From assembly GCA_017518185.1 (NCBI GenBank), contig JAFWWB010000038.1, positions 1 through 48,613 on the forward strand: a DNA stretch of 48,613 bases, written 5' to 3'. The position numbers and the translations under genes were made by a program. The DNA is from Lachnospiraceae bacterium (GTDB lineage Bacteria; Bacillota; Clostridia; Lachnospirales; Lachnospiraceae). The notes under the pieces are model-generated. The model was given only the letters and a program-made list of their open reading frames with translations, ran no database searches and was not told the DNA's origin. Of this stretch, positions 32,713-48,613 are shown piece by piece (the stretch's first letter is position 1; every line of letters begins with the position of its first letter).

Positions 32713-35700
32713 ATGAAGAACAGATCATGGAACAGACGGATCGCGCTCATGATGACGGGGCTGCTCGCCTTCGGGGAATTCGGAGGCAGCGGCATAAAGG
32801 TCGCAGCGGCAGAGGAGACGGGATACTATGAAGAAGACGGATCTGAAGCGGATGAGCTGGCTGAAGAAGCTGATGCTCATGCGGAAGGGGAAAGTGAGGA
32901 GACGCCGTGTCCGGGGGATGTAGAAGATCCTGCGGAACAGCAGTCTGAGGACAGCTGCGCTCCGGACGAGGCTGAGGATGAAGCTGAGTACAGCGCCTCC
33001 CCGGATGAAGCGGAAGCAGAGGCTGAAGAGGCTTTTGAGGCTGCAGAGGAAGAGCCTGATGAAGCCGGCTGTGCGGAGGATAATGAGGGGCCTTCCGGCA
33101 ATGGTGAGGCTGCAGATGAACCGGCAGAAGAGGAAGAGGTGGATCCCGATGAGTCCAACTCTGCTCTTTTTGTGGGAAATATCGATGTTATCAATGCCGG
33201 GGGAGATCTGCCTGCCGGCCTTTCCTATGACAGCGAGACAAATACCCTGACAATGGAGAACTATACCGTCTCCAGCGTGTATAACTTCGATGACGGTACC
33301 AGTAAGTTTTACACCGGTATCTACTGCGCCGGTACCCTTAATCTTGTTCTCAAAGGAAATAATAAGATAAGCTGCGGCAGCGGGAACGGCGATCTTTCCG
33401 CCTACGGCATTTACTGTACCTATGATCTGAACATTATGAATGCCGCAGGCGCGGACGGTTCGCTTGATGTGGATCTCGGATATTCAAGCTGCGAGAATTC
33501 ACCTTCAGCCATATACAGCTTCCATGTTTTCTCGGTCGAAGAACAGAGCGGAGGAACCCTTACCCTTGATGTAAAGGCGCTTCCGGCCACCCTCTGGTCC
33601 CAGAAAGCGAATACCGGCGGTTATTCCTGCGGTATAGAATCATACGGCGTGGAGATCAAGAGCGGAACCGTGCATGTATATACCAACAGCGCCGAAAGGA
33701 CCTCCTATGGTTTTTATGTAAAGAATGGCCAGAATTACATCCAGGATAACGGTACTGTCACCGTTGAACCGGTGAAGGGCTCAGGCAGCTCGCAGAATGC
33801 CTATGGTATCAATACCGGGAGCGGAGCTATATGGGTAAAGGCCGGCAAGCTTTCCGCCACCGCCGGGGATATATACAGCAGCGAAAGCACAAAGGTCAGC
33901 AGCTATGGCCTTTATACCACCGGATCCCTCACCTTTGACCGCTACACGGAGATAGAGGCCCATGCCGGGAGCAAGGGAAGCAGCGCTAATGCTGAGAGCA
34001 CCGGTATGTACGGAGTTACCGGCGTTAATCTCAACGGCAGGACCACGGCATCCGGAGAGGATTATGCCATCAGCAACGGTTCGGGCCTTCAGAACAAATC
34101 CAAGATAAATCCCTATTATACAAAGATAATCAGACCTGCCGGGGGTTCTTCCGGAAAATACGGAAGCATCTTTACTTTCCTGGATGCATCGTCGGCTCCG
34201 GCTAAAGAGGTTTATCTTATCGATGAGACAGAGGAGTACAGTGAAGACCCTACCCCGACGCCGGATCCGGATCCCGTGGATTATTACGATGTCTGGATAG
34301 GGAGCGTGAGGCTGTCTTCGGAGAATAAAAACAGCATAAGCGGCGTTACATATGATCCTGATACGAATACTCTTACATTGGGCAGCGGACTGAACATTTC
34401 CGACAGCTCTTCATTATGGGGAAAAAGCGCCAGGATCGCGGCTTCGGGAGATCTTAAGCTGAGGGGCAGCGCCACATTGAGCTCTGCGGCCGGCCCGGTG
34501 GTATTTGCGGGCGGCAATGTGGATGTGCAGGGCAGTTTCAGTTTCAGCTCAACACATTCATCGGCAGCTGCTATGGAGGTCAGCGGAAATGCAGCCTTCG
34601 GCGGCAGCGGATCGGTCCTTTCCCTTAACGCTAAGGGAGCAGGGCTCAGCTGTAAGCAGTACAGCCAGAGCGCAGGAACTTCAACCTTCACGGGAACGGC
34701 AGGCATCGATGCTTCACAGAAGATCCAGATGTCGGGCGGTGAACTTAACGCCGTAAACTGCACTGTAACAGCATTGATGGCCGGCGGAAACGGCATCATC
34801 ATCGCTGACGGTTATGCCATCACATCACCCGAGGGCGGATGTATCTCGGAATTCGGAGGATCACCTTCCGCACAGCATGTGCTTGATGGTTTTGGGAATA
34901 TCTCAAAGTCCGTCACCATAGAGGAGTATCACGCACCGGATCCGGTGGAACCTACGGAGATCGAGGTCAGCCAGGCGGACGGCGTATACGGAAGCACGCT
35001 GGCAAAGCCTGTATGGACAAGGCCTGAGGAAGGCGGAACGGTAAGCTACTGTTACACAGGAAAGCTCTGGAAGGATAACAGCAGCTATGAAGCTTCTTCC
35101 AAAGCCCCGACTCTGCCGGGCAGCTATAATGTCAGCGTAAACTTTGTAAAAGACGGACATATCTACTATGGAGATGCTGATTTCTCCATCGTAAAGAAAA
35201 CGGTCAGTGTTAATGTTACCACCGTCGGAAGGGTATACGATAAGAATGATCTTACTGTTGCCATAGCCGGTGCTAGCGTTACCGGACTCGTAGGCAGCGA
35301 TGACTGCACAGTAGATATAAGCGCAGCCACTGCGCTTCTCGCCGATGATGACGCAGGTACGGCCAGACCCGTTACTGTAAGCGGGGTAGCCCTTACAGGC
35401 GCGGATTCGGTCAACTACCTGCTGGGCGGACAGCCTGCCGGTGTTACTGCGGATATCGCAAGGAAGAGCGTGAGCGTGAATGTCACCATTGCGGGACGCG
35501 TCTACAGGGCTGCTGATTACAGCGTTACCGTATCCTCGGCATCCATAACCGGTGTTTTCGAAGGTGATGACTGCCGGGCCGACATCAGCGCCGCCAAGGG
35601 TACCATGGCTGATGACAAGGCAGGTGAGGGTAAGCCCGTTACCGTTACGGGAGTGACCCTTGCCGGAGATGATAAGGCAAATTATACCCTGGCAGCCCAG

Positions 35701-38676
35701 CCTTCAGGGGCAACAGCGGATATTGAAAAAGCAGAGTGGACAGCCACCGAGTTCAGCACCAGCGGCACTCCGGGACAGGAAGGAAGGGTTGACCTTGGGG
35801 CGTATAAAAAGATAGCGCCCGGCGGCCTTCTCGGGACCATAAGCGTGGTCTCGGGTGAAGAGGATCTGGATCCCGCAAAGGTTGCGCCCTATTTTTCGGA
35901 GACCACACTGCTGTGGTGGTGCAGGGGCGGCATCGAGACCGTCTCCATCGTCCTGAACGTGCCGGTCACCAATGCACAGAATTATAAGGATTACAATATC
36001 ACCGTAAGGATAGTTGGAGAACACATCCATGAAGCGCTTCCTGTTGATGCCGTGTCAGCCAACTGTACGGAGGATGGTACAAAGGCATACTATAAGTGCA
36101 GCATCTGCGGCCGTATGTTCTCGGATGAAACAGCGCAGACCGAGATTCACGACGAGGATATAGTGGAGCAGGCCCTTGGACACAGCTGGGGAGAATGGCA
36201 TACGGTCCTGGAGCCCACCGAAACGGAAGAGGGAATGAAGCGGCGTGAATGCAGCCGCTGCGGCGTGAGCGAGAATGAGATACTGCCTGTCAAAGAGCAT
36301 GTTCATGTGATGTCCCGTGTCGAAGCGGTATCCGCAAGCTGTAATACGCCGGGTACGCTGGCTTATTACAAGTGTACGGGCTGCGGACGTCTCTTCTTTG
36401 ACGAGGCAGCTGCGAATGAGATAACGGAAGAAGATATCGCCGGACAGGAGGCTCTGGGACATAACTGGAGCGACTGGGAAACGAAGGATCCTACCGAAAA
36501 CGAAGACGGTTACGAACGCCGTGAGTGCCACCGCTGCGGTGAGGTTGAGGAAAACATCATCCCTGCGCTTGGTCATATACATGAGATGGCCTATATCACT
36601 GCGGTTTCTGCAAACTGCACAGAACCGGGGGTCTTGGCTTATTACAGGTGTACGAAGTGTGATCTGATGTTCTCTGATGAAGAGGGTAATAACGTTATCC
36701 ACGATGAAGATATCGTTGGTGAGCCTGCCCTTGGCCATGACTGGGGAGAATGGCAGACGGAAAAGGAACCCAGCGAGGCCGAAGAAGGACTTAGGTCCCG
36801 GGTATGCAGCCGCTGCGGTGAGCGTGAGGAATTCAGCATTCCCGTGCTGGTAAAGCACGAGCATACTCTGGAATATGTTGAAGCGGTCTCTGCCAGCTGC
36901 AACACTCCCGGCAAGATGGGATATTATATCTGTACGGAATGCAGGCATATGTTCTCGGACAGTGAAGGCCTTAACGAGATCTATGAGGACAGTCTGGTAC
37001 AGCAGCCTGCTCTCGGGCATAACTGGGGATGGTGGACAGTCGTAAAGTATCCCACCGCCAGGGAGGATGGCCTGAAGTGCCGAAAGTGCTACCGCTGCGG
37101 AGTCGAACAGGAGTTTATCATTCCCGGAGGCATAGAGGAAGGCCTTCAGGTGTATTTTGATACCGATGACAGTGATGTCGAGATAACCGAGACCGACGAG
37201 GGTATCTTTGAGACCGTATACAGCGGATCGGCCATAAAGCCCGGCATGATAGTGATGAACAACGGCATAAGGCTTCTGGAGGACAGGGATTACACGCTTA
37301 AGTACGGTAACAATACCAACGTTACGGCAGCCGGAGCCACGGTCACCGTTACCGGCAAGGGCAACTACAATAAGAGCGTAAAGCTTAAGTTTTATATACT
37401 CCCGAAGTCCATAGAGGACGGGGACGTGATCCCCGGCAATCTCATCGTGGAGAGCGGAAAAGCCGCAGCGCCGGTGCTGGTCTGTAACGGACTGATACTT
37501 AAGAACGGAAAGGATTTCTCCTTCACCCGTGACGGAGACAGCCTGATCCTTACCGGAATGAACAATTACACCGGCACCCGCACCCTTACTGTAAGGGAAT
37601 ATGAGAGCGAGGCATACAAGGCGGCGGCTATCAGGGTAAACCTGAAGAAGGGCATTTCCAGGATCTATAACGGGGAAGAGCATGAGCTGCTCCCCGGTGA
37701 ACTGGATGTGGTCTCGGCAGCTACCGGCGATACCCTTGAGGAGGATAGGGATTACATCGTAAGCTATTCCTCCAATATCAATGCCGGGACCGTTAAGCTT
37801 ACCGTGACGGGTATCGATTCCTACAGCGGAACCGTTACGAAGAGCTTTAAGATAAAGCCGGCAAAAGATGCTGTCATAAGCGTGGATCCCCTTGAGGAGA
37901 GCTATGACTATGTTAAGAGCGGAGTTAAGCCTGTACTGTCGGTTCACGCAAGGATCGGCGAGACGGAATTTGACCTGGCTGAAGGCGTGGATTACAGGGT
38001 AAGCTACTCGAATAACAAAAAGCCCGGCACGGCAAAGTTCAAGCTGACCTTCAAGGGCAATTACAAGGGTGCAAAATTCAATGGTGACAATACTTACCGC
38101 ATCGAGGCGGCCCAGGCAGATGAACTGACTGTGATCGCCGGCGATATGGTCTATTCAAAGAATACCAAATACCAGCCGAAGCTCTGGGTCATCGCCAACG
38201 GAAGCCTGGTGGCAAAGAGCGACATGACGGTTGCCTACGGCACGAACGAGAAGCTGGACGGTCCCAGGGAAGCGCTGGATATCACCGTAAGCAGCAGGAA
38301 CACGAAATATATCTTTGACCAGAAAGATCTTAATTATGATGTAAAGGAAGCTGAGGGGCTCATCGATGTGAACAAGGCCAGGGTCACGCTCGTGCAGAAC
38401 GGTAAGAGGGTGTCCAGGGTGGAGTATACCGGAAGAGAGATCAGCTTCGAGGATGATGATGAAGGCGCAATACAGATCTGTGTGAAGATCAACAAGGATA
38501 TCACATTAAGCGGTTCCGAGCTTGATGAGTGCTTTGATGTCTTCTACGCGGATAATGTGGAGAAGGGTAAGGCCACCATCATACTAAGAGCCCGGGATGA
38601 TTCAGGCTTCTGCGGTGCCTGCGCGGGTACCTTTACCATCGGAGCGCAGCCCATCAGACTGCCGGAAGCGCAGTAG
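32713..38676 (+). CDS. Giant multidomain surface protein (1987 residues)
   Basis: Domain order: signal peptide (1-34), acidic linker (~35-155), a first beta-solenoid (~158-510; INAGGDLPAGLSYDSETNTL), a PTPDPDPVDYYDVW joint, a second solenoid (~525-735) starting with the same WIGSVRLSSENK/SYDP-TNTLTL-type repeat, MBG/YDG Ig-like units (~750-1020), four ~90-residue Cys-rich repeats (~1103-1472), and Ig-like units to the end. The C-terminal ~200 residues resemble those of the protein at 1-3639. The solenoids look like carbohydrate-binding-type folds. Likely an adhesin or wall protein; there is no sortase signal. GGAGGG precedes the ATG. The TAG stop forms part of the next gene's ribosome binding site (TAGGAGG). 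Confidence 0.88.
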   Translation: MKNRSWNRRIALMMTGLLAFGEFGGSGIKVAAAEETGYYEEDGSEADELAEEADAHAEGESEETPCPGDVEDPAEQQSEDSCAPDEAEDEAEYSASPDEAEAEAEEAFEAAEEEPDEAGCAEDNEGPSGNGEAADEPAEEEEVDPDESNSALFVGNIDVINAGGDLPAGLSYDSETNTLTMENYTVSSVYNFDDGTSKFYTGIYCAGTLNLVLKGNNKISCGSGNGDLSAYGIYCTYDLNIMNAAGADGSLDVDLGYSSCENSPSAIYSFHVFSVEEQSGGTLTLDVKALPATLWSQKANTGGYSCGIESYGVEIKSGTVHVYTNSAERTSYGFYVKNGQNYIQDNGTVTVEPVKGSGSSQNAYGINTGSGAIWVKAGKLSATAGDIYSSESTKVSSYGLYTTGSLTFDRYTEIEAHAGSKGSSANAESTGMYGVTGVNLNGRTTASGEDYAISNGSGLQNKSKINPYYTKIIRPAGGSSGKYGSIFTFLDASSAPAKEVYLIDETEEYSEDPTPTPDPDPVDYYDVWIGSVRLSSENKNSISGVTYDPDTNTLTLGSGLNISDSSSLWGKSARIAASGDLKLRGSATLSSAAGPVVFAGGNVDVQGSFSFSSTHSSAAAMEVSGNAAFGGSGSVLSLNAKGAGLSCKQYSQSAGTSTFTGTAGIDASQKIQMSGGELNAVNCTVTALMAGGNGIIIADGYAITSPEGGCISEFGGSPSAQHVLDGFGNISKSVTIEEYHAPDPVEPTEIEVSQADGVYGSTLAKPVWTRPEEGGTVSYCYTGKLWKDNSSYEASSKAPTLPGSYNVSVNFVKDGHIYYGDADFSIVKKTVSVNVTTVGRVYDKNDLTVAIAGASVTGLVGSDDCTVDISAATALLADDDAGTARPVTVSGVALTGADSVNYLLGGQPAGVTADIARKSVSVNVTIAGRVYRAADYSVTVSSASITGVFEGDDCRADISAAKGTMADDKAGEGKPVTVTGVTLAGDDKANYTLAAQPSGATADIEKAEWTATEFSTSGTPGQEGRVDLGAYKKIAPGGLLGTISVVSGEEDLDPAKVAPYFSETTLLWWCRGGIETVSIVLNVPVTNAQNYKDYNITVRIVGEHIHEALPVDAVSANCTEDGTKAYYKCSICGRMFSDETAQTEIHDEDIVEQALGHSWGEWHTVLEPTETEEGMKRRECSRCGVSENEILPVKEHVHVMSRVEAVSASCNTPGTLAYYKCTGCGRLFFDEAAANEITEEDIAGQEALGHNWSDWETKDPTENEDGYERRECHRCGEVEENIIPALGHIHEMAYITAVSANCTEPGVLAYYRCTKCDLMFSDEEGNNVIHDEDIVGEPALGHDWGEWQTEKEPSEAEEGLRSRVCSRCGEREEFSIPVLVKHEHTLEYVEAVSASCNTPGKMGYYICTECRHMFSDSEGLNEIYEDSLVQQPALGHNWGWWTVVKYPTAREDGLKCRKCYRCGVEQEFIIPGGIEEGLQVYFDTDDSDVEITETDEGIFETVYSGSAIKPGMIVMNNGIRLLEDRDYTLKYGNNTNVTAAGATVTVTGKGNYNKSVKLKFYILPKSIEDGDVIPGNLIVESGKAAAPVLVCNGLILKNGKDFSFTRDGDSLILTGMNNYTGTRTLTVREYESEAYKAAAIRVNLKKGISRIYNGEEHELLPGELDVVSAATGDTLEEDRDYIVSYSSNINAGTVKLTVTGIDSYSGTVTKSFKIKPAKDAVISVDPLEESYDYVKSGVKPVLSVHARIGETEFDLAEGVDYRVSYSNNKKPGTAKFKLTFKGNYKGAKFNGDNTYRIEAAQADELTVIAGDMVYSKNTKYQPKLWVIANGSLVAKSDMTVAYGTNEKLDGPREALDITVSSRNTKYIFDQKDLNYDVKEAEGLIDVNKARVTLVQNGKRVSRVEYTGREISFEDDDEGAIQICVKINKDITLSGSELDECFDVFYADNVEKGKATIILRARDDSGFCGACAGTFTIGAQPIRLPEAQ
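36019..37128 (+). repeat. Four Cys-rich ~90-residue repeats
   Basis: Four units begin near 36019, 36298, 36574 and 36856. Each has an H-H-E/L---AVSA-C start, AYYKCSICGRMFSDE (CxxC), LGH-W--W and a second CxxC of type CSRCG. Unit 3 keeps C-KC then D, unit 4 has CTECR. The paired CxxC motifs suggest one zinc-ribbon-like site per unit on the cell exterior. Confidence 0.8.
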
Positions 38677-47659: not shown

Positions 47660-48415
47660 ATGAGCAGAGTTTACAATTTTTCGGCAGGACCGGCCGTGCT
47701 TCCTGAGGAAGTCCTTAAAGAGGCGGCTGATGAGATGTTGGATTACCGCGGCTGCGGTATGTCCGTTATGGAGATGAGCCACCGTTCCAAGGTCTATGAT
47801 GATATCATAAAGACGGCAGAAGCGGATCTCCGTTCCCTGCTTTCCATACCGGATGATTACGAAGTGATGTTCTTACAGGGCGGCGCCAGCCAGCAGTTCG
47901 CAATGATCCCCATGAACCTTATGAAGAATAAGGTGGCGGATTACATCGTTACAGGCCAGTGGGCAAAGAAGGCATACCAGGAGGCACAGATCTACGGCAA
48001 GGCCAACAAGATCGCTTCTTCCGAGGACAAGACCTTCTCATACATCCCCGACTGTTCGGATCTTCCCATTTCTCCCGATGCCGACTATGTCTACATCTGC
48101 GAGAACAACACGATCTACGGGACCAAGTTCAAGACCCTGCCCAACACAAAGGGCAAGACTCTTGTTTCCGATGTATCCAGCTGCTTCCTCAGCGAGCCCA
48201 TGGATGTCACAAAGTACGGCCTTGTCTACGGCGGCGTACAGAAGAATATCGGACCTGCAGGCGTGGTCATCGTCATCATGAAGAAGGAGCTGATCACCGA
48301 GGATGTGATCCCGGGCACTCCCACCATGCTTAAGTACAAGACACATACGGACGCACACTCCCTTTACAATACTCCTCCCGCATACGGTATCTATATCTGC
48401 GGCAAGGTCTTCTAG
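47660..48415 (+). CDS. serC: Phosphoserine aminotransferase, ends at in-frame TAG
   Basis: Codes 251 residues of a class V PLP aminotransferase that makes phosphoserine from 3-phosphohydroxypyruvate. Start VYNFSAGPAVLPEEVL is diagnostic; GCGMSVMEMSHRSK, FLQGGASQQFAMIPMN and the PLP lysine in YGGVQKNIGPAG are intact. Normal SerC is ~360 residues. Here codon 252 (48413-48415) is TAG in the segment YGIYICGKVF, where homologues usually have Glu or another polar residue before W-I. The same frame then continues as recognisable SerC. GGGAGG precedes the ATG. Either a recent nonsense allele, a sequence error, or readthrough. Confidence 0.88.
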   Translation: MSRVYNFSAGPAVLPEEVLKEAADEMLDYRGCGMSVMEMSHRSKVYDDIIKTAEADLRSLLSIPDDYEVMFLQGGASQQFAMIPMNLMKNKVADYIVTGQWAKKAYQEAQIYGKANKIASSEDKTFSYIPDCSDLPISPDADYVYICENNTIYGTKFKTLPNTKGKTLVSDVSSCFLSEPMDVTKYGLVYGGVQKNIGPAGVVIVIMKKELITEDVIPGTPTMLKYKTHTDAHSLYNTPPAYGIYICGKVF

Positions 48416-48613
48416 TGGATCCAGTAGATGGGCGGACTCGAGGCAATGAAGCAGCGCAATGAGGAGAAGGCTAAGATCCTTTATGATTTCCTGGATGAGA
48501 GCAGCCTTTTCAAGGGTACCGTTGTTAAGGAAGACCGTTCGCTCATGAACGTTCCTTTCGTTACAGGCAACGCTGATCTTGATGCAAAGTTTGTCAAGGA
48601 AGCAAAGGCTGCC
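48416..48613 (+). pseudogene. serC: In-frame serC continuation after two TAG codons
   Basis: After TAG at 48413-48415 the same frame reads WIQ, a second TAG (48425-48427), then MGGLEAMKQRNEEKAKILYD, DESSLFKGTVVK and DRSLMNVPFVTGN-DLDAKFVKEAKAA up to the window edge. These are conserved parts of the SerC C-terminal small domain with no frameshift or other stop in 66 codons. A short frame could restart at ATG 48428, but it has no ribosome binding site and would be only the C-terminal domain. Confidence 0.75.

Follow-up and report, generated by a model that had tools for sequence, protein, structure and literature searches.

Two in-frame TAG codons in serC near a doubtful contig end of a Lachnospiraceae genome

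The gene for phosphoserine aminotransferase, serC, at the end of a Lachnospiraceae contig is interrupted by two in-frame TAG codons, and these are most likely assembly errors or part of an ordinary broken copy, rather than a new reading of the genetic code. The stretch analysed, which we call the window, is 48,613 bases long and is the entire contig C16 of the genome G000 (3.33 Mb, 92 contigs, completeness 99.77%, contamination 1.32%); it breaks off inside serC, 186 bases past the TAGs. We favour, with a probability of roughly 0.6, the reading that both TAGs are base errors of assembly, made in the final few hundred bases of C16, where support would be poor, and that the break inside serC marks a place at which two versions of this gene had become mixed.

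The serC frame and its counterparts in the genus

From its start the frame comprises 251 open codons, a TAG, three sense codons, a second TAG and 62 more codons, with which the window ends (Table 1), and it translates as ...YICGKVF, stop, WIQ, stop, MGGLEAMKQRNEEK.... In a profile search with the NCBIfam models, residues 1-251 score 367.8 bits against a cut-off of 253 for NF003764; with TIGR01364 they reach 344.3 against a cut-off of 443.6 and so fall below it, because the piece is incomplete. The first piece also matches 21 distinct PDB sequences, the best being 6czx chain A. NCBIfam SerC models match the 62 residues downstream of the stops as well, and the original prediction of TAGs at 48413 and 48425, with unbroken SerC homology on either side, is thus borne out by the translation and by the matches to both pieces. 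The pieces are alike in sequence and frame to the SerC equivalog families NF003764 and TIGR01364, and the gene differs from known SerC by the two in-frame TAGs and the contig break: instead of a single unbroken frame of about 360 codons codons 252 and 256 are stops and the end is truncated. The frame is otherwise kept across the 954 bases present. A second, intact serC, which had been raised as one possible answer, was not found in a search of the genome; only the end of the gene recurs, on contig C14.

Table 1. Coordinates of serC, of the contig-end features of the window and of the other genes of the same genome with a private in-frame stop
Feature	Position	Strand	Basis or remark
serC (phosphoserine aminotransferase), intact first 251 codons	47660..48412	+	NF003764, E 4.8e-110, residues 1-251
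First in-frame TAG, serC codon 252	48413..48415	+	Lys 26, Gln 1 in 27 genus rows
Second in-frame TAG, serC codon 256	48425..48427	+	Lys 27/27 genus rows
serC, same-frame continuation up to contig end	48428..48613	+	NF003764 profile positions 255-314 = piece residues 2-61
57 bases identical to C14 end	48508..48564	+	comparison of contig ends
Final 49 bases, differing from C14 at 12 sites; contig end probably mis-joined or mixed	48565..48613	+	C14 vs C16 vs genus
hisZ	C39:41034 of 70648 (L208, L228, L264)		private in-frame TAG, far from contig ends
Zinc-ribbon + Sel1-repeat gene	C49:10175		private TAG
Gene with GGDEF-like domain	C31:36159		private TAG; piece just under Pfam cut-off
Glycosyl hydrolase family 25 gene	C14:14823		private TGA
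MFS-type transporter gene	C72:34336		private TAA

With the first 251 residues as query, serC was matched in each of the other 34 genus genomes (in G008 in two pieces); the matched part is free of stops in every one of them, and the open frame runs to at least 363 codons in 33 of the 34. The genus alignment was built from 29 loci, two of which (L019 and L027) were dropped on account of their length, and the remaining 27 rows of 358 residues line up free of gaps. The expectation that each TAG replaces a GAG, AAG or CAG holds in so far as the relatives carry a sense codon at both places, and it needs correction as to the residue, which in the genus is lysine, a single glutamine at the first site excepted. 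A wider set of 109 serC rows, 108 of which could be anchored and in which some contigs are counted twice, gives a similar account: AAG or AAA stands at the first position in 100 of the anchored rows and at the second in 87, and 80 rows have the lysine pair at both. Neither stop occurs in any of the 109 rows, all of which are 338 residues or longer. A 23-base stretch spanning both TAGs was present in 4 of 310 loci, and all four are, by their location, copies of the same contig end.

Compared with the 27 genus rows, the serC of the window has five private residues: 217, 230 and 233, to which the two stops are added. All five lie from position 48308 on, and the first 216 residues include none. 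The distribution of bases is much the same, with seven of the nine private ones lying from 48274 on. Private bases and residues therefore gather late in the contig, and the odd part of the sequence is its last ~300 bases, the TAGs among them. The original prediction had described a gene with no other decay; this is right as regards the reading frame, but all five private residues fall in the last third and the final 49 bases conflict with C14.

The end of C16 and its counterpart on C14

The end of contig C14 bears the missing last part of serC, a piece that matches positions 281-356 of the 357 in NF003764, followed by a frame that from its sequence we take to be serA-like. The two contigs have an identical stretch of 57 bases in common, and the TAGs sit 80 to 95 bases ahead of it, so that C14 is unable to contradict them; the conflicting version from the same assembly concerns 48565-48613, where 12 of 49 bases differ, and the TAGs are outside the stretch that C14 covers. 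Over these last bases C16 ends NADLDAKFVKEAKAA and C14 reads NEELDAKFVKESKAA. The C14 version is also that of 12 of the 14 genus rows printed, the remaining two differing from it by one residue, and across 28 genus rows the end stretch is nearer to C14 in 22 and nearer to C16 in four, with two tied. Among 106 rows of the wider set the end residues are nearer to C14 in 53, nearer to C16 in 29 and tied in 24; with 29 rows on its side, the C16 version of the last residues is not outlandish for the family.

Contig ends to the number of 53 (35 left, four of these masked, and 18 right) were set against one another. A few other pairs have 48 to 59 exact bases in common, and C14 and C16 are the sole pair that extends past the shared stretch in an orientation that would join them. 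A scan of the 49 unmasked ends, at 1,500 bases each, gave five candidates and no convincing gene split by a stop, and hence no sign that false stops abound at contig ends in general; the same scan missed the stops in serC as well, the upstream score lying just under the threshold, and so has little power. Four contigs of less than 2 kb (C3, C7, C21 and C32) read as N over their first 1,500 bases and were excluded from the counts.

We propose the following account of how the end of C16 may have come about. The break within serC would lie at a point where one version of the gene had been mixed with another, and near this end the depth would be low, or reads of two strains would be mixed together. 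In the organism itself serC is probably whole, with serA after it. The genome is presumably a metagenome bin, judging from contigs that stand in no size order, the smallest seen being ~1.5 kb, and from its four nearest named kin, all of which are labelled as metagenome-assembled and two of which as rumen. Two nonsense codons in 15 bases are more than independent changes would be expected to give, by reasoning rather than by computation, so that a local cause is wanted, and the contig end offers one. Base errors and split genes at contig ends are known in metagenome-assembled genomes, and the present case resembles them in the gene split at the end, in the alternative continuation on another contig and in the scattered private stops described below. 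Genes split at contig ends are also mentioned in a passage of the MIMAG paper (PMC6436528).

In-frame stops elsewhere in the genome

A private TAG in hisZ led to a wider scan for stops flanked on both sides by coding-like sequence in a single frame, which took in 848,613 bases of the genome and, as a control, 400,000 bases of its relative G028. The scan rests on codon-usage scores and on reading by eye, and its counts are lower bounds that concern in-frame stops only. From 86 candidates we retained, by eye, at least seven internal private stops in six genes, five of them TAG, one TAA and one TGA; besides the candidate on C49, seven were viewed in longer context, and the rest were judged on 15 residues before the stop and 25 after it. 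The control gave 29 candidates, all viewed in longer context and none judged internal. At the rate of the first genome 2.8 affected genes would be expected there, and the probability of finding none is 0.06, which is weak, coming from one control genome.

The relatives read through these places without a stop wherever they were covered. Among the hisZ matches listed across the other 34 genus genomes none has a stop, although G021 has a single, weaker match that may represent a different gene. Covering relatives in 24 of the 34 genomes have no stop at the equivalent of the zinc-ribbon position, and the same count of genomes holds for the GGDEF-like gene; for the family 25 hydrolase none was seen at the equivalent place in 33 of 34 genomes, among the matches listed. 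In the case of the transporter, 25 relatives have a match and 11 were fetched; the stop is absent from all 11, which have tyrosine where this genome has TAA. A TAA that seemed to be common to several relatives in the same gene was rejected, since it is their ordinary final stop. Weak side matches that do hold a stop were seen in three relatives, with TGA at G017:C11:14917-15195 and at G008:C54:3670-3855 and with TAA at G029:C65:9759-9950, and these may be decayed genes; judged by the part of the query that they cover, those in G017 and G008 are Sel1-like side matches.

The five affected genes other than serC all lie at least 10 kb from a contig end, and an end effect alone therefore fails to explain the genome-wide picture. 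Real gene decay would give the same picture. If all seven stops in the 849 kb were errors, and given that 3.7% of changes create a stop, simple arithmetic would put the error at very roughly 2 wrong bases per 10,000; for single-cell genomes, the MIMAG paper gives, in one passage, ~9 mismatches per 100 kb (PMC6436528).

Alternative readings of the TAG codons

Known instances of TAG recoding are pyrrolysine coding and the phage codes in which TAG stands for glutamine, and serC is like them in having in-frame TAGs in an otherwise intact gene. If TAG were read through or recoded as a lysine-like amino acid, a full SerC would be made, and it is true that the genus has lysine at both positions and that TAG is the commonest private stop, at five of seven. 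We nonetheless hold this reading to be barely credible, and the proposal of an amber suppressor, a pyl system or a loss of RF1 found no support. The RF1 gene is present as a single open frame that scores 519 bits against a curated cut-off of 423.25, and in it the GGQ and P-x-T motifs can be recognised. PylS has no match above its cut-off in the genome; of two weak matches below it, one is hisZ and the other is a frame that we take, from its sequence, to be lysyl-tRNA synthetase-like. The search found 38 tRNA genes, and among their anticodons, all of which were read, CUA is absent; tRNAs for Tyr, Asp and Ile were likewise not found, so the assembly is without some ordinary tRNAs and the absence of a suppressor is not firm. 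TAG also serves as a normal stop, ending four of the 27 window frames taken as genes, and in two of the TAG-ended proteins, chorismate synthase and a DUF4869 protein, the Pfam profiles are covered to the end or to within two positions. Another TAG-ended frame of the window, with 1,987 codons at 32713-38676 and YDG-domain matches, is at a guess a large surface protein. Nor is there an excess of TAG among the private stops, whose share is as chance predicts: random single changes at the codon usage of this genome would give TAG at 0.53, TAA at 0.28 and TGA at 0.18, and the probability of at least five TAG in seven is 0.28, on seven events only. That the stops are of all three kinds likewise argues against a recoding of TAG. 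Unlike the recoding systems, then, this genome has RF1, uses TAG as a normal stop and shows no CUA tRNA found, no PylS above the cut-off and no TAG excess, and on these grounds recoding and suppression were rejected. Low-level natural readthrough of amber codons by a near-cognate ordinary tRNA, with some full-length product from serC and hisZ, seems to us just as far-fetched. Of the options put forward originally, a double nonsense allele, an error and readthrough, it is accordingly an error or an ordinary nonsense allele that is favoured.

The nonsense allele is the main alternative, less probable but one that we take seriously. The strain, or a fraction of the population, would have a broken serC without the last ~110 residues and would live on outside serine, and the second TAG and the private residues nearby would have come after selection was gone, or both TAGs in one local mutation event. 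The private stops that lie far from contig ends, in hisZ and four further genes, are consistent with a lineage in which some genes undergo ordinary decay, so that the picture drawn from six genes keeps this reading alive, and the three private residues directly upstream of the stops speak for it too. It has to contend, however, with a frame kept across 954 bases and a run of 216 residues that has nothing private, and with a genus in which every other serC is free of stops over its matched part and, with one exception, extends to at least 363 codons. Through the two changes the 18 bases from 48411 to 48428 become more nearly palindromic, with 8 of the 9 pairs matching where relative L009 has 6, an effect that a template switch might have; the argument is post hoc, though, and one change per arm is unlike a simple one-way template switch, and the increase is probably due to chance. 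It is highly improbable, in our view, that the end of C16 came from another organism, its last few hundred bases being the decayed serC of a different species. The last residues do resemble those of some more distant kin, such as DADLDAKFVKEAKAA in L071, but the segment 48390-48613 is overall closest to the same genus, the nearest match being 90% identical, in G028, among the 35 genomes searched, all of the genus. In 90-base windows, moreover, the identity to most genus mates falls solely in the last one, of 48 bases.

The chief value of the case, with errors near the contig end as the preferred reading, is one of caution, for a pair of stops within 15 bases is striking, and yet the same assembly holds a conflicting contig end. 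If the TAGs are true, the gut strain would be one that requires serine, a matter of modest interest.
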